The notes under the pieces: generated by a model | Told to the model about the DNA's origin: nothing | What the model saw: the letters and a program-made list of their open reading frames with translations, nothing else | Database searches by the model: none | In this document: one piece after another, positions 95 to 42,872 of the stretch | Layout: every line of letters starts with the position of its first letter | How positions within the stretch are numbered: the first letter of the stretch is position 1 | Position numbers and translations under genes: made by a program | DNA from: Mariprofundus sp. KV | Lineage (GTDB): Bacteria; Pseudomonadota; Zetaproteobacteria; Mariprofundales; Mariprofundaceae | DNA length: 64,000 nucleotides | Assembly: GCF_013387475.1 (NCBI RefSeq) | Contig: NZ_VWNB01000009.1 | Span: 62,001 to 126,000 of the forward strand | Direction: 5' to 3'

Positions 95-2164
95 ATGAGC
101 CAGCCGGAAGCGGGCGCTAAACTCCGCATTGGTGAACTGCTGGTGAGCCGCGGGCTCATCAGCAGTGACCAGTTGCAGGAGGCGCTTGATCAGCAGCAGG
201 CGGAGGGAGGACGGCTTGGAGATATCCTGCTTTCCCGCCGTGCCATCACAACTGTCGCATTTTACGATGCCCTGACAGATCACTTCCGTCGCGGACGGAT
301 TGGTGATCTGCTGGTTGAGAGGGAGCTGATCACTGAGTACCAGCTACAGGATATTCTTGAAACCCAGAAGCAGTGGGGTACTCGCTTTGGTGACATTATT
401 CTGGCCAAGGGGTTGGTGAAACCCTTCTTTCTGAGTCAGGTTCTGGCCGATCACTTCGATAAACCGAATATCGATATGCTTAAAGAGAGGCTGGACACGA
501 GCATTCTTGATCGTGACAACCTCTCCACCTATTCAGAGAACCTGTTTGTGCCGTGGCGCAGAGAGAATGGATTACTGAAGGTGGCCGTGGTTGATGTCAC
601 CCCTGAGCTGTTACAGATCGTCGACCGTGTGGTTGGCGAGCCGTTTGATTTTGTTATCACTTCAAAATTTGACATTATCTGGACGCTGCAGGAGATCGGT
701 AATCAGTTCTATACGGAAAAAGCTGTACATGAGCTTGCCAATATTATGCCGCAGTTCTCAGCCAGTGAGGTGTTTACGCCCAGACAGCTGATCTTTGTCT
801 TTATCTGGATGACCCTGAGTGTGGCTGCACTGGCACTCTGGCCGATCAACTCCATCATTGCCCTGAATCTGGCGATTTCGATCTTCCTGCTGCTCAACTT
901 TGCGCTACGTATGGTGTTGACCTGGGTGGGTGGCGATAAGTACTTTGATAATCTGGTAACCGATGAAGAGGTGAATGCGATTGATGAGCGGACGCTGCCG
1001 GTCTACTCCATTCTGCTGCCAATGTACCATGAGTCGGCAACACTGCCGAATATCGCACAGGCACTTCGCTCCCTCGATTACCCGCTCTCCAAGCTCGATA
1101 TTAAACTGATTCTTGAGCAGGATGATGATGAGACTATTGAGACGGCAAAAGAGCTCGGTCTTGAGGGAATCTTTGAGATTATCCGTGTGCCGGAGTCATT
1201 CCCGAGAACCAAACCCAAAGCGTGTAACTATGCCCTGCACTTCTGCCGAGGTGAGCTTGCCACAATTTACGATGGTGAGGATGCACCGGAGCCTGATCAG
1301 CTGAAAAAGGTTGTGATCGCCTTCCAGAAAGCTCCCGAGAATACGGCGGTGATTCAGGCCAGGCTCAACTACTTTAATGTGGCAGAGAACTGGCTGACCC
1401 GTATGTTCACCATGGAGTACTCCCTCTGGTTTGATTTCTATCTGCCTGCTCTTGATGCACTGCGCATTCCAATTCCGCTTGGTGGCACCTCCAACCACTT
1501 CAAGATGAATGTTCTGCGTGAAATGCAGGGCTGGGATCCCTATAACGTAACCGAGGATTGCGATCTTGGCGTGCGTCTGACCCAGCGTTTCTATCGTGTG
1601 GGTGTTGTGAATTCGACCACCTATGAAGAGGCCAACAACTCCATTCCTAACTGGATTCGCCAGCGTTCGCGCTGGTTGAAGGGTTATATGCAGAGTTATC
1701 TGGTGCATATGCGCGCGCCGCTAAAACTCTATGGCGAGTTGGGTCATATCGGCTTCTGGGGGTTCCAGTTCTTTATCGGCGGAACGATTGTGAGTGCGCT
1801 GGTGACCCCGATCCTGTTCCTCATGTATATCCTCTGGCTGATCACGCAGACGATGGTGTTTGACCCCTATTTCCCCTCCATGGTGCTCTACATCAATCTG
1901 TTTAATCTGCTTATCGCCAATGGTTTCCTGATCTACCTGTTTATGCTCAGTGGCTTTAAACGCAGATATTTCGATCTGATTCCATGGGCTCTTACCGTTC
2001 CTTTCTACTGGATTCTGCAATCATGGGCCGGATACAAGGGGCTCTGGCAGTTGATCCATAACCCCTTCTACTGGGAGAAGACCCATCATGGTCTGACCAC
2101 CTTTGAGGTGGGGCATGAGAAGTCAGATGTGAAACCTGCCCCTGCAGCCGGTGGTGCCAAATGA
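95..2164 (+). CDS. Processive family-2 glycosyltransferase with MshEN-type N-terminus
   Basis: Probable inner-membrane polysaccharide synthase. Residues 1-115 carry four copies of the MshEN-type motif (RIGELLVSRGLI, RLGDILLSRRAI, RIGDLLVERELI, RFGDIILAKGLV). MshEN domains of MshE-type ATPases bind cyclic di-GMP. Membrane segments lie at about 235-285. The GT-A domain starts near residue 301 and shows the processive signatures DGED (about 393), TEDCD (about 486) and QRSRW (about 523). Further membrane helices span 545-655. The architecture resembles XagB-like exopolysaccharide synthases. Its stop overlaps the next start (ATGA), so it is translationally coupled to it. The sugar polymerised cannot be read from sequence. 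Family call is firm; c-di-GMP control is inferred. Confidence 0.9.
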   Translation: MSQPEAGAKLRIGELLVSRGLISSDQLQEALDQQQAEGGRLGDILLSRRAITTVAFYDALTDHFRRGRIGDLLVERELITEYQLQDILETQKQWGTRFGDIILAKGLVKPFFLSQVLADHFDKPNIDMLKERLDTSILDRDNLSTYSENLFVPWRRENGLLKVAVVDVTPELLQIVDRVVGEPFDFVITSKFDIIWTLQEIGNQFYTEKAVHELANIMPQFSASEVFTPRQLIFVFIWMTLSVAALALWPINSIIALNLAISIFLLLNFALRMVLTWVGGDKYFDNLVTDEEVNAIDERTLPVYSILLPMYHESATLPNIAQALRSLDYPLSKLDIKLILEQDDDETIETAKELGLEGIFEIIRVPESFPRTKPKACNYALHFCRGELATIYDGEDAPEPDQLKKVVIAFQKAPENTAVIQARLNYFNVAENWLTRMFTMEYSLWFDFYLPALDALRIPIPLGGTSNHFKMNVLREMQGWDPYNVTEDCDLGVRLTQRFYRVGVVNSTTYEEANNSIPNWIRQRSRWLKGYMQSYLVHMRAPLKLYGELGHIGFWGFQFFIGGTIVSALVTPILFLMYILWLITQTMVFDPYFPSMVLYINLFNLLIANGFLIYLFMLSGFKRRYFDLIPWALTVPFYWILQSWAGYKGLWQLIHNPFYWEKTHHGLTTFEVGHEKSDVKPAPAAGGAK

Positions 2165-3660
2165 GGGGTATGACCCGCCGTACCGGCCTGGAAGGGCAGC
2201 TGTTTCTGGCGTTAATGACCGCCATTCTGGTGTTCATGACGATCTGGATTCTCTCCAACGGTTTTATGCTCGATTCAGCTACCATTCGCTGGACTCGTGT
2301 GGTCAGTGCGCTCGATGCCGAAGAGATTCTGGTGGAGAATCTCTCTTTCCTGATGCCGCATCTGCCGCTCTATCTGCTGATTCCGTTCTACTATATACCC
2401 GGCCTTGCCACCGGCGCGGCGCCCTATCTGCTTTCGGTAATCGTTGCTGTATTCCTGCTGCATCTGTGGGCGAAAAACCTGAAAGAGGTGGAGCTCAGTG
2501 AGCACAGGCTGGTTATTCTCGGACTGCTGGTGGTGCTGCATCCTGCATTTCTCTGGAGTGCAACTACAGGCAGCCATATCGCACTGAGTATGCTCGCCTT
2601 CTATCTGCTTTACCGTGCAGCTCAGCACATTATTTCAGAACATGACCTGCACTCCTATATCTCGCTTGCCGTGGTGTTCGTTTTCTATTTCTTTATCGAT
2701 GGCTCGGCGATCTTCATCTTTGTTGCACTGATTCCGCTGCTGGTGGTGATTGCACCGATTCGAACCATCATGGTATCACCGATGAGTCTCTATCTCATCG
2801 TCGGTACCCCCTTTGCTTTTGCACTGTTCAGCTGGGCCTATCTGAACTGGATCTTTGAAGGTTCGTTTATCAACTTCATTACCGATGCCGACTCAGACTT
2901 CCTCGGTGGTATGCTGCATGTGTTCGATTATCCCTGGCTTCTCGATTATGGCGGGGAGTTTTTCATGCCGCTTCTGGCTGCCACCGGATATCTGCTGATT
3001 GCCTTCCCTGTATCGGTCTATCTGCTGCTCGATACCATTAACAACAGTTATCGTTTCCGTGCCTCTTTTGTGCTGCTGCTGCATCCTCTGATCGCCATTG
3101 CTATTGCGACCAGTCAGTACTATCTGACCCATCCGTTTGAGATTCTGACGCTGGTGAGTGCAGGTCTGATGGCGGAGCTTACCTATGTGAAGATGCAGAC
3201 CAAACGAGAGTTTGTGTTCCTTGTTATCTTCATGATGGTCAGTGTGGTTGGTGGCTGGTGGCTGTTTATTGAAACGGCCAGTCCGCAGATGGCGCAGTGG
3301 GTGCAGGCCTTGAAAGGGGAGCAGCTGCACAGTGCACAGAGTGATGGTGATCTGCAGCTGGGCCTGTGGTTGAAAGAGCATCGTCAGCAGACCATGATGT
3401 ATGAGCGCAGTGCTTTCAGGGTGATTGCTGCCAGAGGCGATGCCAAAGGGCTGGTGCTCTCTTTTTCGCATGACTTTAAAGCTGCCATGCGTTCAAGAAT
3501 CCCCGATGTTGAACAGATTGCTGTGCCGGAACCGGACACGCTTATCGGGCGCAGAGACTGGCTGAATATCAGGCACCCTAATCTCTACGCTTACGGCATG
3601 AAGGGATTTGATCTGGTTTACGACTATATGGGTTGGCGGGTGTACCGTAAGCATGGGTAA
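2161..3660 (+). CDS. Polytopic membrane protein of exopolysaccharide cluster, unknown function
   Basis: A 499-residue integral membrane protein with roughly ten hydrophobic helices across residues 15-400 and a soluble C-terminal part of about 100 residues. It starts four bases inside the glycosyltransferase and overlaps the next lipoprotein by eight bases, so it belongs to the same operon. I recognise no catalytic motif. The many-helix layout with a soluble tail resembles GT-C-type glycosyltransferases or polysaccharide-modifying membrane enzymes, but that is only a suggestion. A role in polymer synthesis, modification or export is inferred from position. Confidence 0.8.
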   Translation: MRGMTRRTGLEGQLFLALMTAILVFMTIWILSNGFMLDSATIRWTRVVSALDAEEILVENLSFLMPHLPLYLLIPFYYIPGLATGAAPYLLSVIVAVFLLHLWAKNLKEVELSEHRLVILGLLVVLHPAFLWSATTGSHIALSMLAFYLLYRAAQHIISEHDLHSYISLAVVFVFYFFIDGSAIFIFVALIPLLVVIAPIRTIMVSPMSLYLIVGTPFAFALFSWAYLNWIFEGSFINFITDADSDFLGGMLHVFDYPWLLDYGGEFFMPLLAATGYLLIAFPVSVYLLLDTINNSYRFRASFVLLLHPLIAIAIATSQYYLTHPFEILTLVSAGLMAELTYVKMQTKREFVFLVIFMMVSVVGGWWLFIETASPQMAQWVQALKGEQLHSAQSDGDLQLGLWLKEHRQQTMMYERSAFRVIAARGDAKGLVLSFSHDFKAAMRSRIPDVEQIAVPEPDTLIGRRDWLNIRHPNLYAYGMKGFDLVYDYMGWRVYRKHG

Positions 3661-4657
3661 TAGTGTTGTGAAATGGAGTCTGCTGGCCGTGGCAGTGGCA
3701 CTGCTTGCCGGTTGCGCCAGTGAGGCGCTTGTCCAGAACAAGAGTATGAAGCGCGGCTTTAATGCACTGCAGCATGAGAGCTTGCCGTGGGATCAGCCCG
3801 CGGCGAGAAAATCGATCAGCAGGCTTACTTCTCTTGGTGCCAATGCGGTGGTGTTTATCGCTTTTATGGAGCAGCAGGAGCCAAGCTCACATCAGGTGAG
3901 GCGCTCCAATGCCGTGACCATGCATCAGCTAAAAAAAGCAATCTCCTATGCAAAGGCAGACAAGTTGCATGTGGCGTTGAAACCGCAGATGCTGGTACAT
4001 AATTCATGGGCAGGTGAGATCAATCATCGCACTGCTTATGATTGGGATCTCTGGTTTGCCAACTACTCCAGAGAGATCATGGAGTACGCAATTTTTGCCC
4101 AGCAGCAGGGAGTGGATACATTCGTTATCGGCACTGAGTTGTCCAGGGCATCCGCACATGTCAACTGGCCCCGGCTTATTCGTCAGGTGCGTCGAGTCTT
4201 TCGCGGTCAGTTGACCTACGCAGCGCATAATGTGGAGGGGGTGAGAGCATTTCCGAACTGGGATCTTCTTGATGCCGTTTCACTGACTTTTTACCCGTCA
4301 CTGGGAGCAAGTAGTGACAGGGCATCGCTGCAGGCTCGCGTGGATATTGCCGTTGAGGAGTTGCGTGTTGCAGCAGCGGCGATCAAGCGGCCACTGTGGG
4401 TGATGGAGGTGGGTATCCCGTCTGCTAAAGGGGCCTCATTAAAGCCCTGGGAGTGGCAGGGATTAAAGCATAGAAGCGTGGATTTGGCACTTCAGAGTGA
4501 GGTGCTCGATATCTGGTTAAGGGCACTGGATCAACCGTGGGTTGATGGCATTTATATCTGGGCGTGGTACAGCAATGCCCGTGCAGGTGGTCAGCGCGAC
4601 ACCGATTACACACCGCAGAATAAACCTGCAGAAGATGTGATCGGACGTTACTGGTGA
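3653..4657 (+). CDS. Glycoside-hydrolase-like (GH113/TIM-barrel) lipoprotein
   Basis: The chosen start gives MGNSVVKWSLLAVAVALLAGC, a lipoprotein signal with an LAGC lipobox; an in-frame start at 3608 would spoil it. The mature part is a TIM-barrel-like domain. Its two candidate catalytic glutamates are in GTELSRAS (near residue 162, end of a strand) and MEVGIPS (near residue 252), the pattern of clan GH-A enzymes such as family 113 mannanase-like proteins. It overlaps the preceding gene by eight bases. Probable role: trimming the polymer made by the cluster at the cell surface or in the periplasm. Substrate unknown. The family is recognised from pattern only. Confidence 0.75.
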   Translation: MGNSVVKWSLLAVAVALLAGCASEALVQNKSMKRGFNALQHESLPWDQPAARKSISRLTSLGANAVVFIAFMEQQEPSSHQVRRSNAVTMHQLKKAISYAKADKLHVALKPQMLVHNSWAGEINHRTAYDWDLWFANYSREIMEYAIFAQQQGVDTFVIGTELSRASAHVNWPRLIRQVRRVFRGQLTYAAHNVEGVRAFPNWDLLDAVSLTFYPSLGASSDRASLQARVDIAVEELRVAAAAIKRPLWVMEVGIPSAKGASLKPWEWQGLKHRSVDLALQSEVLDIWLRALDQPWVDGIYIWAWYSNARAGGQRDTDYTPQNKPAEDVIGRYW

Positions 4658-4665
4658 GGGGTTGA

Positions 4666-5631
4666 ATGATGGGTTTTTTAAATATTAGAAAGAGACTGAT
4701 TCTATCTGTTATGGCAATGCTGTTTGCTATGGGGCTGACTACTACGACTTCATATGCCGGTGTTGGTATCCTCGAGGAGGATGAGAACTCTATCTCTGCA
4801 AACCTCTCATTTTCCGGTAGTAACAAGCAGTGGGATAGTAACAGGAATGTGCTGACCTCAATCTGTCAGAGACGCAATGTCGATCTCTCTCTCGGATATG
4901 AGTATGGCTGGTCCTATTTCCATACCGTCTACAGCAGTGTGAACTTGGCTTACCGCAAGTGTGGTGTGGGTACTGTTCGTACTGCTATTCCAGGAGCGCC
5001 TGCCGGTTTTACGATAAACACCCAGTACGCCTCCGGCAGAGCATGGGGTTTAGGTGATGTCGAACTGGGTATCCGTACCCGCTTTGGTGGGAACTATATT
5101 AATAATGCGGCATGGGAAACTTTTCTGATTATTCCAACCGGTTACGACAACAACAGCCCCTCTGCACTTGGCCGGGGAGCTCTTGGTGCTGGTCTCGGTT
5201 TGATTTTCTCATCAGATGCATCTGACAGATATCCTAATAAGTGGGGATACAGTCATAAGAAGTGGGGTTGGAAGGCGGGCACTAAATTCACCTACTTCTT
5301 CTCCTCCAAAGGTAATTCACTCTCTACATTTGCGGCAGTTCAGTATGCCTTCACAGCCAGTGACTTTGAGCAGACGGGTGATTATTTAGAGTTCCGCATT
5401 GATAACTCCATCGGCTTTCAGAATGGTGGCGTTCAGCAGCAGGTCTTTATTAATCAGGCACCAACGGCCATGACCAGCTCTGATCAGACCTCGTTCAAGA
5501 TAAAATACAGCCACGCCTTTATTGGTACGGGCTGGTCAGGAAGTATCAGCCTTGGCCACGCCTTCTTTGGTCGTAATGCAGCAAAATCCACCTCTATTGC
5601 AGCCGGTGCAAACTACCGGTGGAGAGACTAA
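4666..5631 (+). CDS. Outer-membrane beta-barrel-like protein of exopolysaccharide cluster
   Basis: A 321-residue exported protein. Its signal peptide ends near SYA|GVG (about residue 31). The mature protein alternates polar and aromatic or aliphatic residues, is rich in Gly, Ser, Tyr and Phe, and ends with an aromatic strand (NYRWRD), as in outer-membrane barrels. ATG codons lie at 4666 and 4669 behind GAGGGG. It sits eight bases after the hydrolase and three bases before the SH3/CotH gene, so it is inside the operon. It may be a porin or export channel for the polysaccharide. No named family is recognised. Confidence 0.7.
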   Translation: MMGFLNIRKRLILSVMAMLFAMGLTTTTSYAGVGILEEDENSISANLSFSGSNKQWDSNRNVLTSICQRRNVDLSLGYEYGWSYFHTVYSSVNLAYRKCGVGTVRTAIPGAPAGFTINTQYASGRAWGLGDVELGIRTRFGGNYINNAAWETFLIIPTGYDNNSPSALGRGALGAGLGLIFSSDASDRYPNKWGYSHKKWGWKAGTKFTYFFSSKGNSLSTFAAVQYAFTASDFEQTGDYLEFRIDNSIGFQNGGVQQQVFINQAPTAMTSSDQTSFKIKYSHAFIGTGWSGSISLGHAFFGRNAAKSTSIAAGANYRWRD

Positions 5632-5634
5632 ACA

Positions 5635-8600
5635 ATGATTAAAACGGTAACCTTCGTTCGCCTGCTGGCGCTGTCATGTGTGACGGCAGCCAGTGCTGTT
5701 GCGTTTGCAGCAGAGGGGGACCTGTACCGTTTAGTTGATGACTCAAACCTTCGTCAGGGGCCGGGCAGCTCTTATGCGGCTGCCGCGATGGCACACAAGG
5801 GTGATGAGGCAGTTGAGCTGAGTAGAAATAGTAGCTGGTTGCAGGTACGCCTGCAGAATGGAACTACAGGCTGGTTATACAGTGCAGCACTGACGCCTCA
5901 GACTCCTGCCAAGGCAGTGAAAACAGATCAGTTACCCGATGCACAAGCCGTCTCAGAGGCAGTTCAACGTGAAGCTTTGTCCGTGAGCGAAGTGCAACCC
6001 CTTTCAGATGAAAACAGCGTTATCGTATCCGCACCAGTGAAGCCGGCAGCGCATCGTGCTGTTATCAAGCAGGGTGAAGTGGCCGAAGCTTTTGTGCTTA
6101 ATGGTTACGGTGCTGCTCCTGAAAAAACAGAAACAGCGGTAGTAGCGGTTCAACCGTCAGCAGAGCCCAAGCCTGTAGTTGAAACCAGGGTGCAGCCGGT
6201 CAAAGCTGCGCAGACACCGGTCGCTGATAAAACAGTCAAACCGGCAGCGCATCGTGCTGTTATCAAGCAGGGTGAAGTGGCCGAAGCTTTTGTGCTTAAC
6301 GGTTATGGTGCTGCACCCGAAGTTGATATCAAGCCGGTTATGCTGTCTGAACAGCCAGTGATGAAAAGTGAAGAGCCTGTGGTTTGGCAGCTCTCGTCTG
6401 AAGAGACTACAGCAACCGATTCCGAGGTAACATCTGCAGCCCCTGCTGAGATAAAACAGGTGGGTGACGTTGCCATTGTAGATCTGCTTGCGGCTGAAAC
6501 GGCACTTGCGCCAGTTCCGGCAGAGAAGGTGGCGGCAGAGAAGGCGGCGGCAGAGAAGGCGGCGGCAGAGAAGGCGGCGGCAGAGAAGGCTGCGGCAGAG
6601 AAGGCTGCGGCAGAGAAGGCTGCGGCAGAGAAGGCTGCGGCAGAGAAGGCTGCGGCAGAGAAGGCAGCGGCAGAGCAGGCAGCAGCAGAGAAGGCAGCAG
6701 CAGAGAAGGCAGCAGCAGAGAAGGCAGCGGCAGAGAAGGCGGCGGCAGAGAAGGCGGCGGCAGAGAAGGCGGCGGCAGAGAAGGCGGCGGCAGAGCAGGC
6801 AGTTGATGTTCAGATTGAGGCTACACCTTTACTGACGATGGACGAGTCTGAGGTGGCTGTTGCCCCCGTTGCAATCCAATCGGGCGAAACACAGCAGATT
6901 ATTCAGACAACAACCATTCGTTCAGGGCCGGGAGCACTGTTTGAAGTTCTCGGCTGGGTTGGTGCCGGTGCTGATATCATTGCGCTTGAGCAGCAGGGAC
7001 AGTGGTTGAAGGTGCAGATGAAACAGAGCGGGCGCATCGGCTGGATTGAGGCGGAAGCTTTAACTCAGGGGGCTGTAGCTGATCAGCCTGCTTATACTGT
7101 GCAAGAGAGGGCCGCTGGCTCACCGGTAACTGCTACTGGGGCGCTTGCTCCATCACCACTAACACCAGTTGTTGAGCAGCAGCCGTTGGTAGAAGAGACG
7201 GTTGATGCCATGCCAGTTTCTTTGGCTACTGATCAGGACAGAGGCAGGGCTCTCTATCGTTTTGAAAAGAATGCGAATCTGCGTGCCGGTCCGGATGCAG
7301 GGTTTGATGTGGTCTCCTGGGCAACTACCGGTGCCTATGCCGTTGGGTTGGCGCAGCAGGGTAACTGGTATCGTGTTCAGATGCAGGAGAGTAAGCTGAT
7401 CGGTTGGGTCTATAAGAGCTCTGTTGCAATGGTAAAAGCAGCAGCACCAGTGGTTGTTGAGCGTGCTGCACAGGTGCAGGAGCAGCCTGCAATGGCTGCT
7501 GTAGAAACAACTGCACCGGTAATACCGATGCGGCCAGCCGTGGTGGCGACCTCTCCGGCAGAAGAGAAACGCTACCTGTTTACTGCAAACACAGGACTAA
7601 GGGCTGGTCCCGGCAATCAGTTTGATGTGGTTGCCAATGGCGCAGCCAGTGAGACAGCGACTGAGATTGATCGTCAAGGTTCATGGAGCCGGGTTCGCAT
7701 GACCCTGAGTAACAAGGTGGGCTGGGTGGAGAGCTCCCTGCTTGCAGCTGTTGCAGAGGGTTCTTCAGCTGTTGTGGCTGTTTCTGATGCTACGCCTGCA
7801 GTGAAAGAAGGTGCTGTGTCTGAAGCCGCTCCGGAGCCTGCGGTCATAGCGTTGAAAACGGACATGCGTGAATCTGAGCCGGTTGTTAAGCCTGCACCTG
7901 TGCAACTGGTTACCGATAACAGGCCTCTCTATTTTTTCAAGGAGACCAGTAAGCTCAAAGCCGGCCCCGGTAATCAGTTTGATGCTGTGGCCTGGGGAGC
8001 GCGTAATGAGACAGCCAGTGAGATTGATCGCAAGGGTGACTGGTCGAGGGTTCGCCTGACCCTGAGCAATAAGGTTGGCTGGATAGCCAATGCACTGTTG
8101 ATTCCGGCTGAAGTCGTGACCCACACCGCAGCAGCTCCGGCACTGCTGGCATCAGCAGAGTTGCCACAGGAGGGAGGCCTCTATGAGGTGATCAAAACCT
8201 CCACCCTGCGTGTTGATGCAAAAGACAGTGCCGAGGTCAATGGCTGGATCGGAAAAAGTGAACCTGTTGTAGTGCTTGAGCGCAGGAGTAACTGGGCGCG
8301 AGTCAATCCGCAGGCTGCCAATAATCATGTCGGCTGGATCAAAGCGGATGTATTGAAGGAGATCTCTGCAACAGCAATGATTATGCGCGATGGAGAGCAT
8401 TTTATCAGCAAGCGTAATCTGAAAACTACGCTGAAAAGAGTCTCCCATGGCGAGGCATTTAACTTCTCCTACGCAGCCCTTGAGCAGGCTCTCTACAGGG
8501 TGCCTGTTGAGGAGTTTTATATCAATATCGACAGGGATGATCTCGAAGCGGTCTTCCGCAAAGATGTGTATGATAAATCCTCCTTTGATATTGAACTGAA

Positions 8601-10158
8601 AACCAAAGGATTGACGCTGAACAGAACGATGATTGGTCGTATCAGTGTGTTGGGAAGTTCGACGCGAGTGTTTGAAAAGAAATCGCTGCTCATCAAACTG
8701 GATAAGGATGGCGGCCGCTCCTATGGACGGCGCAGGATTGCCTTGCGATCGATGGCCACTGATAAGGCGATGATGCGTGAGTGGATGACCTGGAAGATGC
8801 TGGCGGCACTGGGTATGAAGGTGCCTGAGGTTCACTTTACCCGCGTCAATTTTAACAATGGTGAAAAGGTTGGCATCTATCTCTCGGTTGAGTGGATGGG
8901 CGAGAATTTCCTTGCCGGCAACGATATGGATGTAAATGGCGAGTTCTTCCAGCCCGAAGATGCATTTCACTGTGGTGATCTGCATACCACCGATGAGGAG
9001 CAACTGGCCCTCTGCTTCAACAAGATTACACCACCGGATGCCGATTACAGTTCACTGAGCAAGATGGCAAAAGCTGTCAAAAATGCCTCCAATGAAGAGA
9101 TGCATAAGGTGTTGGCAAAACACTTTGACGATGAGACTGTTATCAACTGGATCGTTACCAACTCACTTGTAACCAATGGTGACACCTACAATAAAAACTA
9201 CTGGTTATACAGGGATCCGAAGAAGGATAAGTGGACGGTTGTACCATGGGATTACAACCTGACCTTCGGCCGCACCTATGATGCCTTTGTTGAGAGTCCC
9301 TACACGATCTTTAATGATAACTTCCAGTACTGGTATCCACCTGATGTTGGTGCGAGTAATCCGATCAAAGATAAAGCGTTGCAGAATCCGCAGTTGCGTA
9401 GTCGTATTGAGAAGAGAATCCGGCATCTTCTGGGACTGGAACCCAATGGTACCGAGTCAACTTATGGCTGGTTCTCACCTACGGTTATGCATGCGCGTAT
9501 CGGCAATCTGGCTTCGGTGATGGGTAAAGAGTTGTTCAAGGATAACATGCTCTCCTATGGCGAAGAGGATTTCAAAAAGATTTATGAAACGCTGATGTAT
9601 TATGTCACCTCACATGCCAATTTCCTGAATGTGAAGCTGTTCGGCGAGTATAAATGGGTGCCGGCAGATCCGAATGCACCAGTCGTATTTGATCCGCCAC
9701 TGCCGACACATCTGATTGGCGATGGTGAGATCAAAAAAGGCGGCGATTCTCTGCGCATGACCGATCAGAGCTGGGGGCTGCTTGCCGGTTATCTGTTGCT
9801 CGACCGGCCTGTTGAAAGCGCAACGAAATTCACACTTGAAGTGGAAGGTGGACAGCGGCCGAAATCACTGCCAACCGGACAGCAGGCAAAACGCTGTGTA
9901 CAGCGCTCATGGGTGCTCTCCACGAAAGGAAAAGCGGTGAATGGCGACCTGCAGGTCGAATATACGCAGGAGAACTCAAGGCGGACTGAGGTTCCTGAGA
10001 CGCTGCATGAGAATCAGCTGGAGCTCTGGATGTATAACGGAGACCGCTGGAAACCGATGAAGACTGAAGTGAATGAGTATGCCAACACGCTTACTGCAAA
10101 AGGTGTGCGCTTTGCTTCCGGAAAACCACAGAGGTTTGTGGCCTGTAGCCCGTTTTAA
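5635..10158 (+). CDS. Giant secreted protein: six SH3-like domains plus CotH-kinase-like domain
   Basis: 1507 residues with a signal peptide ending near AFA|AEG. Bacterial SH3-like domains (LRQGPGSSY, LRAGPDAGF, LRAGPGNQF type motifs) lie at about 30-88, 421-475, 539-595, 646-702, 764-820 and 849-905. Between the first two are a duplicated 25-residue segment (137-161 and 203-227) and an Ala/Glu/Lys helical repeat (297-389). Residues about 959-1330 match the CotH kinase fold, with KVGIYLSVEW, NYWLYRD and VVPWDYNLTFG; the last is the metal-binding loop region. A C-terminal region of about 180 residues follows. SH3-like domains often bind cell wall or glycans, and CotH proteins phosphorylate spore-coat proteins. 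A role anchoring or modifying an extracellular structure is inferred. Confidence 0.85.
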   Translation: MIKTVTFVRLLALSCVTAASAVAFAAEGDLYRLVDDSNLRQGPGSSYAAAAMAHKGDEAVELSRNSSWLQVRLQNGTTGWLYSAALTPQTPAKAVKTDQLPDAQAVSEAVQREALSVSEVQPLSDENSVIVSAPVKPAAHRAVIKQGEVAEAFVLNGYGAAPEKTETAVVAVQPSAEPKPVVETRVQPVKAAQTPVADKTVKPAAHRAVIKQGEVAEAFVLNGYGAAPEVDIKPVMLSEQPVMKSEEPVVWQLSSEETTATDSEVTSAAPAEIKQVGDVAIVDLLAAETALAPVPAEKVAAEKAAAEKAAAEKAAAEKAAAEKAAAEKAAAEKAAAEKAAAEKAAAEQAAAEKAAAEKAAAEKAAAEKAAAEKAAAEKAAAEKAAAEQAVDVQIEATPLLTMDESEVAVAPVAIQSGETQQIIQTTTIRSGPGALFEVLGWVGAGADIIALEQQGQWLKVQMKQSGRIGWIEAEALTQGAVADQPAYTVQERAAGSPVTATGALAPSPLTPVVEQQPLVEETVDAMPVSLATDQDRGRALYRFEKNANLRAGPDAGFDVVSWATTGAYAVGLAQQGNWYRVQMQESKLIGWVYKSSVAMVKAAAPVVVERAAQVQEQPAMAAVETTAPVIPMRPAVVATSPAEEKRYLFTANTGLRAGPGNQFDVVANGAASETATEIDRQGSWSRVRMTLSNKVGWVESSLLAAVAEGSSAVVAVSDATPAVKEGAVSEAAPEPAVIALKTDMRESEPVVKPAPVQLVTDNRPLYFFKETSKLKAGPGNQFDAVAWGARNETASEIDRKGDWSRVRLTLSNKVGWIANALLIPAEVVTHTAAAPALLASAELPQEGGLYEVIKTSTLRVDAKDSAEVNGWIGKSEPVVVLERRSNWARVNPQAANNHVGWIKADVLKEISATAMIMRDGEHFISKRNLKTTLKRVSHGEAFNFSYAALEQALYRVPVEEFYINIDRDDLEAVFRKDVYDKSSFDIELKTKGLTLNRTMIGRISVLGSSTRVFEKKSLLIKLDKDGGRSYGRRRIALRSMATDKAMMREWMTWKMLAALGMKVPEVHFTRVNFNNGEKVGIYLSVEWMGENFLAGNDMDVNGEFFQPEDAFHCGDLHTTDEEQLALCFNKITPPDADYSSLSKMAKAVKNASNEEMHKVLAKHFDDETVINWIVTNSLVTNGDTYNKNYWLYRDPKKDKWTVVPWDYNLTFGRTYDAFVESPYTIFNDNFQYWYPPDVGASNPIKDKALQNPQLRSRIEKRIRHLLGLEPNGTESTYGWFSPTVMHARIGNLASVMGKELFKDNMLSYGEEDFKKIYETLMYYVTSHANFLNVKLFGEYKWVPADPNAPVVFDPPLPTHLIGDGEIKKGGDSLRMTDQSWGLLAGYLLLDRPVESATKFTLEVEGGQRPKSLPTGQQAKRCVQRSWVLSTKGKAVNGDLQVEYTQENSRRTEVPETLHENQLELWMYNGDRWKPMKTEVNEYANTLTAKGVRFASGKPQRFVACSPF
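6043..6315 (+). repeat. 75-bp in-frame direct repeat, two copies
   Basis: A near-identical 75-base segment occurs at 6043-6117 and 6241-6315, 198 bases apart and in frame. It encodes PAAHRAVIKQGEVAEAF... twice. The two copies differ at only a few silent positions near the 3' end, so the duplication is recent or kept uniform by recombination. Confidence 0.9.
6525..6800 (+). repeat. 15-bp tandem repeat encoding an AAEKA-type helix
   Basis: About 18 head-to-tail copies of a 15-base unit (gcggcggcagagaag and close variants) encode alternating Ala-Ala-Ala-Glu-Lys. Neighbouring units often share the same third-base choice in blocks (gcg, gct or gca), a sign of expansion by slippage. Two units carry Gln for Lys. 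The protein product should be a rigid, highly charged helix of about 90 residues separating SH3-like domains. Confidence 0.92.
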
Positions 10159-27912: not shown

Positions 27913-30456
27913 TTAGTGACGTATACGATTCTCATCAATCTGAATCGCTATGGTATCGTTATCCACCTGCTTGGGCAGGTTAACCTTCACCTTTGAATAG
28001 CCGGACATCTGATAGAGGCTGATGACATCATTTCTAATCTGATTGATGTCGGAACGGGAGCGTTCATCTCCGTAGTAGTCTCTGAGGCTGATCAGAATAA
28101 AGTCGGTAGGTAGCAGTTTATTGCCGCTAACCTCGAATCTATTGATGGTAAATGATTGTGATTCAATGGCCGTCCAGATATCCCGTGCCACCACCTTTTT
28201 GGTCGGCGTAATATTGCGATAGAGCTTGATGTTGGCAAAATGGTTGTCGGAAATGGGGCCTGATCTGAATTTTTTACTTTCACAGGCCAGCAGGAAGCCG
28301 GAGATGCCTGCCGCTTTTTTCAGACTTTTGAGCTGCTCCTGACGATCAAAAATATCGACAGGTACTTCGGTTGCAGAGAGTACATAGTAGATATCCCGAC
28401 CATTCATGCTCGATCGGATAATGATGGCATTGTGGTCGGGTCCGATTTTTTGCAGACGATTTACAGCATTGCCCAGCTGGGAGAAGGCACCCAGTGTAGC
28501 AAGCAGTCGATCACCGTTTAATCCATTGAGGCCACGCTGCCATTTGAGCAGGGCTGTTGCATAATCCTGCTGCTCGAAGTAGTGCCACCCATCGTTGATC
28601 CACTCCTGGGGCCCTCCTGCTTCAATCAGCGCACTCTTAAGCGCCGTATCAGTGGGATTGACAGTCTCATACACCGTCACATCCAGTTTTTGAGCTGCAA
28701 CTGAGGCAGGGGTCAAAACCTGTTGAACTTGCTCTTTCTGAGTCATCTGTTTCAGAGGAGGCTGCTTTTTTTCATTGATGGTGCCAGCACTGGCTTGAGC
28801 TGCGGCTTTTTTCTTTAATGCTGCAGCCTCCGCTTCAGCGCGGGCGCGCTGCTTTGACGCCCTCGCTCTGGCTTCGGCTTCGATCTTCAACGTTATAGCA
28901 TTAGCTTCTGCCTCTGCTCGCTCTCGCATGGCTATGGCACGCGCTTCAGCTTCTGCCTGTCGTTCTGACGCTGCCTGTTTTGCATCATTTAGAGCTTTTT
29001 GTTTGAGTGCAATAGCCTCTTTCTCAGCCTGCTGTTCCAGGGCTATGATTCTCTTTTCAGCCTCAAGCTGCTGCTTTATTGTCGCGGCTTTTGCTTCACG
29101 CTCAACTTTTTGCTTCAATGCAGCCACTTCAGCTTCGGCCTTTTTTTGCATCGCTATGGTCAGTGAATTTGCTCTGGTTTTATGTTGCATGGCTGTAACT
29201 TTTGCTTCTGCTTCTGCATGCCGCTTCATGGCACTGATTTTTTTCTCGGCTATCGACGTTTCTCTTAATGCAATGACTTGCGCCCGTGCTTCAGCCTTCT
29301 GTTTTAGAGCCGCAGCCTCTATCTCCGCATCTCTCTTCATAGCGGCGATCTTTATCGCTGTCTCTGCTTCCTGTCTCTCAATTGCAGCTTTTGCCTCTGC
29401 CTCAGCTTGCTGTTTCAGTGCTGCAGCCTCTATCTCCGCGTCTCTCTTCATGGCGGCGATCTTTGCTGCAGCCTCTCTCTTCTCTCTTTCGATTGCAGCT
29501 TTTGCCTCTGCCTCAGCTTGCTGTTTCAGTGCTGCAGCCTCTATCTCCGCGTCTCTCTTCATGGCAGCAATCTTTGCTGCAGCCTCTCTCTTCTCTCTTT
29601 CGATTGTAGCTTTTGCCTCTGCTTCAGCTTGCTGTTTTAGCGCCGCAGCCTCTTTCTGCGCAGCACTCTTCATGGCAGCAATCTTCGCAGCAGCCTCTGC
29701 CTTCTCTCTTTCGATTGCAGCTTTCGCCTCTGCCTCAGCTTGCTGTTTTAGTGCCGCAGCCTCTTTCTGCGCAGCACTCTTCATGGCAGCAATCTTCGCA
29801 GCAGCCTCTGCCTTCTCTCGTTTTGCGGTAGCTTTTGCCTCTGCTTCAGCCTGCTTTTTCAGAGCAGTAGCTTCTGCAGCTGCCTGTTGTTTCAAGGCGG
29901 CGATGCTTCTTTCTCTCTTGGCCTCTTCCCTGGCTATGGCTTCTGCATCTGCTTTTGCAGCGCGCATTTTCGCGGCTTCGGCCAGGGTCTGCTGTTTAAT
30001 TGTTGCCAGTTTTTCAGGTGACAGCGGTGATTTGAATTTGCGTGATTCATTGGCCAGCAGTTTGCCCTGCATGCCCGTTCGCTGTTTTAGTGCGGCCAGC
30101 TGGATCTGTCGGAGGTGGATATCCTTGAGCACCTCCTGCGCCGTCAGCAGGTGGTAACCTCTGCTCTCCTGTGGGTCATGAATGATGAACACTTGTTCCT
30201 GACGACCCGCCAGTTTCAGACGCTCAAGGGCGTTGGCAAATTCTGAAAAGAATCCCAGTGAACCCAGTAGTTGCTTGTCAGGCAGTCTGTTAACGCCCTC
30301 CTGCCAGATGGCGATTGCCGCTTCATGCTGGTTCTGCTCGATCTGTCTCCAGCCTTCATCCAGCCATGTCGGGCTGGTTGCATTGGCAGAAACGAAAAAG
30401 GGAACAACGAGGCAAACAGCCCCGAAAAGTGTCACGGTCACCTTTTTTATAAGCAT
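27913..30456 (-). CDS. Secreted protein: duplicated globular domain, long Ala-rich helix, POTRA-like end
   Basis: 847 residues with a signal peptide ending near ANA|TSP. A domain of about 130 residues occurs twice, at about 29-155 (WLDEGWRQIEQ, LLGSLGFFSEFANALERL, ANESRKFKS) and 612-745 (WINDGWHYFEQ, LLATLGAFSQLGNAVNRL, ACESKKFRS). Between them lies about 430 residues of Ala/Glu/Lys-rich helix built partly from 37-residue repeats. The last 80 residues (INRFEVSGNKLLP, DVISLYQMSGY, IAIQIDE) resemble a ShlB-type POTRA domain. The repeated domain begins with a TPR-like helix pair but its family is not recognised. Likely periplasmic or surface-associated; function unknown. Confidence 0.8.
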   Translation of the reverse strand: MLIKKVTVTLFGAVCLVVPFFVSANATSPTWLDEGWRQIEQNQHEAAIAIWQEGVNRLPDKQLLGSLGFFSEFANALERLKLAGRQEQVFIIHDPQESRGYHLLTAQEVLKDIHLRQIQLAALKQRTGMQGKLLANESRKFKSPLSPEKLATIKQQTLAEAAKMRAAKADAEAIAREEAKRERSIAALKQQAAAEATALKKQAEAEAKATAKREKAEAAAKIAAMKSAAQKEAAALKQQAEAEAKAAIEREKAEAAAKIAAMKSAAQKEAAALKQQAEAEAKATIEREKREAAAKIAAMKRDAEIEAAALKQQAEAEAKAAIEREKREAAAKIAAMKRDAEIEAAALKQQAEAEAKAAIERQEAETAIKIAAMKRDAEIEAAALKQKAEARAQVIALRETSIAEKKISAMKRHAEAEAKVTAMQHKTRANSLTIAMQKKAEAEVAALKQKVEREAKAATIKQQLEAEKRIIALEQQAEKEAIALKQKALNDAKQAASERQAEAEARAIAMRERAEAEANAITLKIEAEARARASKQRARAEAEAAALKKKAAAQASAGTINEKKQPPLKQMTQKEQVQQVLTPASVAAQKLDVTVYETVNPTDTALKSALIEAGGPQEWINDGWHYFEQQDYATALLKWQRGLNGLNGDRLLATLGAFSQLGNAVNRLQKIGPDHNAIIIRSSMNGRDIYYVLSATEVPVDIFDRQEQLKSLKKAAGISGFLLACESKKFRSGPISDNHFANIKLYRNITPTKKVVARDIWTAIESQSFTINRFEVSGNKLLPTDFILISLRDYYGDERSRSDINQIRNDVISLYQMSGYSKVKVNLPKQVDNDTIAIQIDENRIRH
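29266..29820 (-). repeat. 111-bp tandem repeat in the coiled-coil gene
   Basis: Five consecutive units of 111 bases (37 codons) encode variants of AAAKIAAMKRDAEIEAAAL plus a QQAEAEAKAAIERE tail. Adjacent copies are almost identical at the DNA level (for example 29401 onward and 29512 onward), which points to recent expansion. A 37-residue period is not a multiple of seven, so the helix would not be a simple heptad coiled coil. Confidence 0.88.
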
Positions 30457-30574: not shown

Positions 30575-30608
30575 CCCGGCCCCTGTTTATCTTCAAACAG
30601 GGGCCGGG
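30575..30608 (-). terminator. Rho-independent terminator of htpG
   Basis: A perfect 14-bp inverted repeat (CCCGGCCCCTGTTT at 30575-30588 with its complement at 30595-30608) encloses the loop ATCTTC. It is just downstream of the htpG stop on the minus strand and is followed by a moderately T-rich stretch (CTATTTATAAAT). Confidence 0.85.
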
Positions 30609-33440: not shown

Positions 33441-33905
33441 TCACTTCTTTTTACCTTTCTTCTTTGCAGATTCGCATGTCTTTTTTGAAGCTTTTTTGGC
33501 TGCTTTTGCTGCAGCTTTCGTACTTTTCTTCTCACGCTTTAATGTGGCTTTCTTTGCCGCTTTATCCGCCTTGCCAGCCTCTTTTGCAGCATGCTTGGCA
33601 GCTTTTTTCAAGGCCTTGTCAGCTTTGGCTGCTATGGCATTAGCCTTTTTACTCTTCTTGGCTGCTTTTTCTGCTGCCCGGGCCTCCTGTTTAGCGGCTT
33701 TTCCGGCAGCTTTGTCACCATCCTTTAGCACCCTGGCAGCGGCAAGTATCCTGGTGGCACGTGCTTCTCCAAATCCTGGCACAAGGCATAACTTCTTCAC
33801 TCCTCCCTTGCGCAGCGCTTTGATTGAATCAATACCGTGCTCGGCCAGCAGTGCGGCAGTGCTCTCGCCGATGCCTGATACGTCTGTAATCGAATGCTTC
33901 ATCAC
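33441..33905 (-). CDS. Helix-hairpin-helix protein with histone-H1-like Lys/Ala tail
   Basis: Residues 1-60 form a helix-hairpin-helix pair (DVSGIGESTAALLAEHGI and LVPGFGEARATRILAAAR), a DNA-binding fold found in RuvA and Rad51-type proteins. Residues about 62-154 are almost entirely Lys and Ala (AAEKAAKKSKK and similar), like the tails of bacterial histone-H1-like proteins (AlgP, Hc1). The protein is strongly basic. ATG at 33905 follows AGGAGA. Probable nucleoid-associated DNA-binding protein; no specific role can be assigned. Confidence 0.75.
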   Translation of the reverse strand: MMKHSITDVSGIGESTAALLAEHGIDSIKALRKGGVKKLCLVPGFGEARATRILAAARVLKDGDKAAGKAAKQEARAAEKAAKKSKKANAIAAKADKALKKAAKHAAKEAGKADKAAKKATLKREKKSTKAAAKAAKKASKKTCESAKKKGKKK

Positions 33906-40696: not shown

Positions 40697-42300
40697 GCGA
40701 AAGCGATGGCGCCGCCGCGGCGGGGATCGCCGCAGCCATGCAGGTTACCAGCGGGCGAGCGGGTGATGGCATGTACGCCACCGAAATAGACACTCTGTTT
40801 CCGCCAGTCGCGTAGTTTCCAGCCCAGACGCATTAACAGCTCCCGTTCATGGTCATTCAGGAATTCAGGCTCAATATCGAGCTGGTCACCTTCATTGTGC
40901 AGGCGTGGTGCATGCACTGCCGACTCAATATCCTGACCGAGCAGACGATGGCGCAGCAGTGATTGCAGAATTGCACCGCGCAGGCGATTGGAGCCTCCGC
41001 TGCCGAGAACCAGTGCGGGTTTATCGTGCTCAAGAAATATTGAAGGCGCCATCATCGAGGAGAGTGTGGCACCACCGGGCAGGGCGTGGAAGCCCAGCGG
41101 ATTGATATCCTCCTCTCCGAGCATGTTGTTCAGGTGAATGCCGGTGCCGGGCACAACAATACCTGACCCCTCACCATTACTGCTGGTCATCGAGACCGCC
41201 AGCCCATCTTTGTCGATCACACTGATGTGGGTGGTGCTACCGTGGCGATTATCCGGTTCTTTTGCCTGCTCATCACCGATGCCCAGTAAGCGAGCCCTGA
41301 TTCTGGCTGCTGCTTTTTCAATATGCTCCGGCTCAAACATCTGCTGCGCGATCTCAGCATCATGGATACGGGAGTCAAAACCCTCCCGTCGCAGCAGGCT
41401 TGCTGCCCGCAACCCTTCAGCCACGAGAACCGGCCACGGCAATCCGGATGTCTCATGGTTGCGATAGAGGTGGTCGAGCATGCTGGCAGCAAAGCCGATC
41501 AGCAGGCCGCCGGAGCTTGGGGGCGGATTGGTCAGCAGCGTGCCGCCAAGCAGTTCGATATTTAGAGGTTTACGCTCAAATACCTGCTGAGCCCGCAAAT
41601 CCTCCATGCCGAGCAGGCCGTAGGGGGAGCAGCTTTTAACAATCTCCCTGGCCAGATCACCATGGTACATCTCATCGATGCCCTCAATAGTTAACATCTC
41701 CAGTGTATTGGCCAGATCAGGATTGCGGAAGGATTCACCCTCACGCCACAACGCTTCTGAGCTCTCCCCACCCCTCATCGGTTTGTGCAGTGCTCTGCAG
41801 GCGTCGGTATCGGTGAGAATCGGGGTGAGCAGTTTGATGAAGGAGGCTTGCAGTTGATTAAGGCGAATGCCGCTTCTGGCTGCATCCAGCCCCGGTGCAA
41901 GCACCTCGGATAACGGCAATTTGCCATGCACCTTGTGGGCATGAAACAGCATCGCCAGCAGGGAGGGGGTGCCGACCGATGCCTGGCCGATATGGAAGGT
42001 TTGTATGGTGTCGCCGAAATCGATGGGTACCGCTTTCAGTTCAGGCTGGATACCGGTCAATGCTTTGCCAAATGGCATGCGGGCAAAACCGTCATAGAGG
42101 ATGGCACGAGATGCCGAGTCGGCAACCAGCATAAAACCGCCACCACCGGCAGCAGTAAGCACAGGCTCTGCAATAAAGGATGTAGTGATGGCGGCAATGG
42201 CTGCATCAACAGCGTTGCCACCGGCTTGAAGGGTGAGTGCGCCCGCTTCAGCGGTGGCAGGATGACCAGCGGCTACAACCCCGTGACTGTTTCTGCTCAT
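40693..42300 (-). CDS. ggt: Gamma-glutamyltransferase family protein without signal peptide
   Basis: An Ntn-hydrolase that self-cleaves before a Thr in HGSTTHISVID (near residue 355), leaving it as nucleophile. The large-subunit motif is AGGNAVDAAIA and GGGGFML. PSSGG and GSGGSNRLRGAILQ in the oxyanion and substrate regions are present. The 535-residue length is normal, but there is no signal peptide, so a cytoplasmic enzyme is expected, unlike periplasmic E. coli Ggt. A glutathione hydrolase or another gamma-glutamyl hydrolase role is possible. It overlaps the SPOR gene by four bases. Confidence 0.88.
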   Translation of the reverse strand: MSRNSHGVVAAGHPATAEAGALTLQAGGNAVDAAIAAITTSFIAEPVLTAAGGGGFMLVADSASRAILYDGFARMPFGKALTGIQPELKAVPIDFGDTIQTFHIGQASVGTPSLLAMLFHAHKVHGKLPLSEVLAPGLDAARSGIRLNQLQASFIKLLTPILTDTDACRALHKPMRGGESSEALWREGESFRNPDLANTLEMLTIEGIDEMYHGDLAREIVKSCSPYGLLGMEDLRAQQVFERKPLNIELLGGTLLTNPPPSSGGLLIGFAASMLDHLYRNHETSGLPWPVLVAEGLRAASLLRREGFDSRIHDAEIAQQMFEPEHIEKAAARIRARLLGIGDEQAKEPDNRHGSTTHISVIDKDGLAVSMTSSNGEGSGIVVPGTGIHLNNMLGEEDINPLGFHALPGGATLSSMMAPSIFLEHDKPALVLGSGGSNRLRGAILQSLLRHRLLGQDIESAVHAPRLHNEGDQLDIEPEFLNDHERELLMRLGWKLRDWRKQSVYFGGVHAITRSPAGNLHGCGDPRRGGAIAFA

Positions 42301-42872
42301 CTACCTTTCTGGTGAACGATAAAGCCTTTGGTTTTCATCTTCTTTTCAATGGCGATTTGAAGTTTGTCTGCCTCGGTACGCTGCTGCTCAGGGCCAGCCC
42401 AGACTGCATAGAACCCATTGTTTTTTTGAGAGAGAACACCACTCCAGCCGTGACGCTTGAGTTGATCGATCAATCCCTGTGCTCGTGGCCTCTCCTTGAA
42501 TGCACCCAGCTGCACGTAATAACCACTGCCGGGCTCATCTGCAGAGGGGGTAGCTTTGAGCACAGGCTTTTTGGCAACCTCTTGTTTAACGACCGGCTTG
42601 GCCGGTGCGACAACTGTGCCGGGGTTGACCGGTTCAACTACCGGTTCCGGCTCAATCTGTTCCGGCTCCTCGATAATGGCAGCTGGCAGATGTTTAGCCT
42701 GCGATTTGGCGCGCTCTAGCTTGGTCACCGTTTCATTGGCCTGTTCAGGAGATGGTGTGAAAAGATCAGGTTTTAGTGAAGCTGTGAGGATAAGCAGCAG
42801 GCAGCAGGCAGCTACAATCCATGCCGCACGGTGCTCCATCACTGATGCTTGCCAGTTTGTCTCTCCACTCAT
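42297..42872 (-). CDS. Single-pass SPOR-domain protein
   Basis: One transmembrane helix (about residues 17-35) is followed by a Pro/Glu/Val-rich linker (about 55-110) and a C-terminal SPOR domain (about 115-190, YYVQLGAFKERPRAQGLIDQL). SPOR domains bind denuded septal peptidoglycan, so the protein probably localises to the division site like FtsN or DedD. It lies 17 bases after the receiver gene and four bases into ggt. Confidence 0.88.
   Translation of the reverse strand: MSGETNWQASVMEHRAAWIVAACCLLLILTASLKPDLFTPSPEQANETVTKLERAKSQAKHLPAAIIEEPEQIEPEPVVEPVNPGTVVAPAKPVVKQEVAKKPVLKATPSADEPGSGYYVQLGAFKERPRAQGLIDQLKRHGWSGVLSQKNNGFYAVWAGPEQQRTEADKLQIAIEKKMKTKGFIVHQKGR

Follow-up and report, generated by a model that had tools for sequence, protein, structure and literature searches.

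Within the window (the whole 64,000-nucleotide stretch of Mariprofundus sp. KV analyzed here) lies a gene for an 847-residue protein in which two copies of a domain, here termed D, flank a long alanine-rich coil, and a ShlB-type POTRA domain closes the polypeptide (Table 1). The reading that we prefer, although tentatively, is that this protein is a soluble periplasmic adaptor, with D modules as anchors, a POTRA that docks in trans, and a coil acting as a free spacer. The observations behind it are an export signal recognized in the sequence, the folds of D and POTRA, the recurrent fusion of D to exporters, selection acting on both domains, and a spacer of hypervariable length. Much of the layout had been described in the first-pass annotation, namely the same 130-residue domain beginning and nearly ending the protein, an Ala-rich helix of about 430 residues, a C-terminal POTRA with no barrel behind it, and a hint of SPOR in the repeat. 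These features were recovered, the helix as a prediction from composition and the SPOR resemblance at the level of a modeled fold.

Table 1. Features of the D-coil-D-POTRA gene and its upstream flank, in window positions.
Feature	Residues	Position	Strand	Basis or remark
D-coil-D-POTRA gene, 847 aa		27913..30456	(-)	ORF; purifying selection versus G051 orthologue
Signal peptide, Sec type, without lipobox	1-25	30382..30456	(-)	Sequence read by eye
D domain, N-terminal copy; TPR-like helix pair plus SPOR-like fold	26-155	29992..30381	(-)	
Ala-rich coil, predicted helical	159-588	28693..29982	(-)	Composition
Tandem array inside coil, 111-bp (37-aa) unit, 5.2 copies		29287..29859	(-)	Tandem Repeats Finder
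D domain, C-terminal copy	614-742	28231..28617	(-)	
ShlB-type POTRA domain	769-840	27937..28152	(-)	PF08479 1.6e-9; POTRA fold match
Intrinsic-terminator-like hairpin after htpG, just upstream of the gene		30575..30608	(-)	15-pair stem, strong

The gene lies downstream of htpG, with a cNMP-binding gene and sucAB opposite it on the other strand. Directly upstream stands the strong terminator-like hairpin that follows htpG, and the gene probably forms a transcription unit by itself. No partner gene adjoins it, the neighbors htpG and sucAB being housekeeping genes. Signal-like N-terminal stretches are also found in intact family members. NCBIfam holds no family for the protein, and in the literature searched no paper was found on POTRA in Mariprofundus or on an orphan POTRA together with SPOR. 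Elsewhere in the window (33441-33905, (-)) a helix-hairpin-helix domain, extended by a long tail rich in Lys and Ala, resembles histone H1-like nucleoid proteins.

The two D copies share 42% identity across 126 residues (BLASTP E 2e-31), and their Smith-Waterman score of 236 compares with a mean of 27 and a maximum of 49 in 1000 shuffles; in the genome to which the window belongs, D was seen solely in this protein. An AlphaFold model of D based upon 27 related D sequences (mean pLDDT 91.8) predicts two helices followed by β-α-β-β-α-β, which is the order found in SPOR domains. Foldseek matched the model with the SPOR domains of CwlC, DedD, DamX, and RlpA (1x60, 6ztg, 2lfv, 6i05), the TM-score against that of RlpA being 0.70 by target length; the E-values of these matches are weak (0.05-0.6), and de novo and unrelated proteins are interspersed in the ranking. 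Alignment of D using hhalign with 27 genuine SPOR domains, drawn from the Zetaproteobacteria and some other Pseudomonadota, spanned 70 columns end to end with an E-value of 6e-4 and a probability of 28%, the latter compared with at most 0.5% for eight column-shuffled controls and 3.3% for an alignment to POTRA. The SPOR link of D rests on this predicted fold and on the hhalign result. At the level of Pfam, D scores 12.4 bits against a PF05036 cut-off of 21, and the profile matches one of the 27 copies at E<=1.

Two conserved SPOR residues are replaced in D. In place of the glycan-binding Gln (Q270 in RlpA; patch residues taken from PMC6895207), 27/27 copies have S, V, T, or F, and none of the 27 keeps a strand-3 Arg, for which Tyr is the usual substitute; the comparison covers this Gln and this one Arg of the basic patch. 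Since both residues are replaced throughout, canonical binding of denuded glycan by D appears unlikely, and from this loss, together with the score below the Pfam cut-off, D is best called SPOR-derived rather than canonical SPOR. Set beside the domains of PF05036 in FtsN, DamX, DedD, RlpA, and CwlC, it has the same fold and order of elements but differs in these respects and in the TPR-like helix pair that precedes the fold. A profile search of the PDB with D returned mainly TPR proteins and not SPOR; the first 30 residues align to consensus TPRs, with just one hairpin per D, and TPR_2 matches eight of the 27 members at E<=1 (best 6.5e-6). An ordinary SPOR-domain protein of 191 residues, carrying the canonical YVQLGAF motif and unlike D, is encoded at window positions 42297-42872 (-).

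The C-terminus scores 37.9 bits with PF08479 (POTRA_2; cut-off 24) and 23.8 bits with PF07244 (cut-off 21.3), whereas POTRA_1 falls below its cut-off (16.5 vs 23 bits). AlphaFold modeling of residues 606-847 gave the β-α-α-β-β order of a POTRA, with a pLDDT of about 81-91 over the domain, and Foldseek matched it with the POTRAs of BamA, CdiB, and TpsB4 (2mhj, TM 0.69 by target length). The ORF stops at the POTRA, the next gene is the convergent one for the cNMP-binding protein, and Pfam reveals no ShlB or Omp85 profile match in the 847-residue protein. In TpsB proteins the POTRAs are N-terminal to a 16-strand barrel. By profile and fold the domain is like the ShlB-type POTRA of two-partner secretion (FhaC, ShlB, CdiB, TpsB4), but here it is single, C-terminal, and devoid of a barrel. 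FtsQ/DivIB also has a POTRA that acts without a barrel; it is, however, a membrane-anchored divisome protein with POTRA_1, whereas the protein described here has no evident transmembrane anchor and another layout.

A second barrel-less protein of the same genome, 502 residues long, has the arrangement POTRA-disordered-POTRA (L064:6940-8448; G000:C25); its locus, which adjoins the aconitase gene, is conserved over several members of the genus. DUF992 proteins adjoin both the D-carrying relatives of this protein and the barrel protein of G059 described below, and are candidate clients.

As to the suggestion in the first-pass annotation that the protein docks an Omp85/TpsB machine, the accompanying search for orphan barrels yielded an Omp85 protein and no free ShlB. 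Among the 23 genomes of the genus, a ShlB barrel scored above cut-off in one (G059), where it is fused to D-D-POTRA, and a free one in none. The genome of the window encodes BamA, TamA-TamB, and a 440-residue Omp85 with one POTRA. The latter adjoins coaD (L073:7432-8754; G000:C1:93434-94753) and is present in 10/23 genomes of the genus. Its co-occurrence with orphan POTRA proteins (6/10 vs 4/13) gives p = 0.22, and as an obligate partner it was rejected, being missing in M. ferrooxydans PV-1, M. micogutta ET2, and other species with orphan POTRAs. With no free ShlB, and a small Omp85 that does not track the orphan forms, the docking candidates left for the POTRA are BamA or TamA, or a client other than a barrel.

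The coil consists of 33.5% Ala, 15% Glu, and 14% Lys, and its first 399 residues contain neither Pro nor Gly, a composition from which it is predicted to be strongly helical. Compared with the G051 orthologue, its closest relative, the protein differs in total length by 74 residues, equivalent to two of the 37-residue units, a difference which the alignment distributes over several gaps. For this pair dN/dS is ~0.09 in D1, ~0.07 in D2, and ~0.04 in the POTRA, as against ~0.21 in the coil, which also shows many large indels; these values indicate strong purifying selection on D and the POTRA, with the coil free to change. Within the genus, proteins of this architecture, both orthologous and paralogous, have coils of 385, 458, 726, 1374, and 1626 residues between their D copies, which as single straight helices would measure 58-244 nm; the ends of these proteins are conserved.

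These lengths bear on the earlier proposal of a periplasm-spanning tether or ruler. A ruler that keeps a barrel machine of the outer membrane at a constant distance would accord with globular ends, a long helix between them, and a POTRA at one end. It is nevertheless very improbable, given a coil of 385-1626 residues among sister species, coil-less D-POTRA and D-D-POTRA proteins that occupy the same slot, a genus without any free TpsB barrel, and straight lengths that exceed the usual periplasm, which is tens of nm wide. Of the original proposal, a tether docking an envelope machine is still plausible, whereas the ruler, or a simple span of the periplasm, did not survive the comparison of coil lengths. 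Also highly unlikely is a TolA-like energized or mobile link, in which the Ala-rich helix would reach across the envelope with a binding domain at its end. Domain II of TolA is a long Ala-rich helix of variable length, and the coil resembles it in its richness in Ala, Lys, and Glu, its near lack of Pro and Gly, and its changing length; the 847-residue protein, however, has no TolA_C match in Pfam, would have no transmembrane anchor in the inner membrane if its signal peptide is cleaved, and bears globular domains at both ends.

D occurs in 17/78 genomes of Zetaproteobacteria, and none was found outside this class among the 398 Pseudomonadota genomes searched. A contig scan with the whole protein, in which four of the six search patterns fell outside the conserved D-POTRA end, found nothing; alignment with D-POTRA succeeded. 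The domain appears in a variety of architectures. D-coil-D-POTRA is found in five species, D-D-POTRA (393-419 residues) in three, D-POTRA (251-266 residues) in four, and POTRA-x-D-x-POTRA in two (L062, L063). Fusions to other proteins include a D-D-POTRA-ShlB barrel in one species (G059, L058; ShlB 3e-24), a D-TPR-PgaA barrel in two (L060, L061), beside pgaB- and pgaC-like genes, D-TcpQ, which is pilus protein-like, in one (L116; 2e-11), and D-CotH in one (G057, L059), where it forms part of the sfz stalk cluster. D-TPR proteins are found in M. erugo and in three genomes of the wider order. G059 additionally encodes a D-containing protein of 1892 residues (L115:6098-11776) for which neither Pfam nor NCBIfam gave a match at E<=0.01. 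At L058 the barrel protein is followed by a low-complexity secreted protein of 217 residues and two DUF992 proteins (2759-5323; 563-2664), and this may be a small two-partner-like secretion locus.

The slot between htpG and sucAB holds D-POTRA, D-D-POTRA, or D-coil-D-POTRA depending on the species. In trees, long forms have an N-terminal D that groups with the D of most single-D short forms, whereas their C-terminal D is placed, with moderate support, next to the second D of D-D proteins. A second, longer D-coil-D-POTRA is encoded elsewhere in three species whose slot holds D-D-POTRA, and it is these copies that are nearer in sequence (58-61%) to the protein of the window. One could regard the orphan proteins as what is left of a D-D-POTRA-ShlB exporter after loss of the barrel, with a minor function or none retained, as G059 possesses the full protein and the orphan forms are the same minus the barrel. 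This is quite improbable: the dN/dS values of the POTRA and of D denote continuing constraint, and orphan forms ending in a POTRA are present in many genomes of the genus, often at a conserved locus.

In the adaptor model, which we favor, the protein would first be exported by Sec into the periplasm, its presumed location. The two D modules would there anchor it to a partner in the envelope, likeliest a glycan and possibly a protein; among glycans, peptidoglycan or an exopolysaccharide under export are the candidate ligands. The POTRAs of TpsB and BamA act by adding a strand to a sheet. By such strand addition the ShlB-type POTRA at the far end may capture a polypeptide or dock an export component in trans, and the coil, presumably helical in the cell, would serve as a spacer, elastic or lateral, for which the exact number of residues is immaterial. 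This model is consistent with the fusion of D to envelope export proteins across the class (PgaA, ShlB, TcpQ, and CotH forms), with the SPOR-like fold of D, and with D and POTRA domains of low dN/dS next to a coil in which it is higher and indels are many. Against it stand the replacement of the Gln and strand-3 Arg in every D copy, the weakness of the SPOR E-values, the lack of an adjacent partner gene, and the absence of D proteins from about half of the genus Mariprofundus, from which it follows that their function is dispensable.

A candidate cluster for twisted-stalk formation, which includes Sfz6 (CotH), has been described in the Zetaproteobacteria (PMC8250860), and window positions 95-10158 (+) correspond to its sfz2-sfz6 in order, length, and domains. 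In Sfz6 of the window (1507 residues), a CotH kinase domain is combined with six SH3_3 stretches and with a helix of ~95 residues built from (AAAEK)n; it has no D. In the G057 stalk cluster (L059:4258-12257), the sfz2 of which is 66% identical, D instead replaces the N-terminal SH3_3 region of Sfz6. As D stands where the other protein has SH3_3, a type linked to cell-wall binding, an equivalent job is suggested for it. This fusion is the only direct tie of D to stalks: across 23 genomes of the genus the presence of D and of sfz2 show no association (Fisher p = 1.0), and a link to stalk formation by presence and absence was rejected.

Two further readings draw upon the same cluster. An extracellular protein of the stalk or biofilm matrix, with the coil as a fiber, D binding exopolysaccharide, and the POTRA as an assembly module, is unlikely; the fusions of D to Sfz6 and to the PGA exporter, the long AAAEK repeat helix of the window's own Sfz6, and a repeat-driven variation in length typical of surface proteins agree with it, but the protein lacks a signal for surface export, D does not track with the sfz cluster, and the gene is not beside matrix genes. 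Rather unlikely, too, is a scenario in which D is a zetaproteobacterial SPOR-derived module that gained a new ligand, for instance the stalk or PGA exopolysaccharide instead of denuded peptidoglycan. D would then sit on several exporters (PgaA, a TpsB protein, a helper of the pilus secretin, and the CotH protein of the stalk), and free D-POTRA adaptors with helical arms tuned by slippage would gather these at the stalk exit.

D constitutes a class-restricted domain, absent from Pfam and NCBIfam, that has repeatedly been attached to export machinery, and barrel-less ShlB-type POTRA proteins are documented here as a recurrent, selected kind within one genus. The fourfold shift in coil length among sister species, with fixed ends, provides a natural test of a coil as a ruler. 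The wider context is the export and orientation of twisted stalks in iron-oxidizing bacteria.
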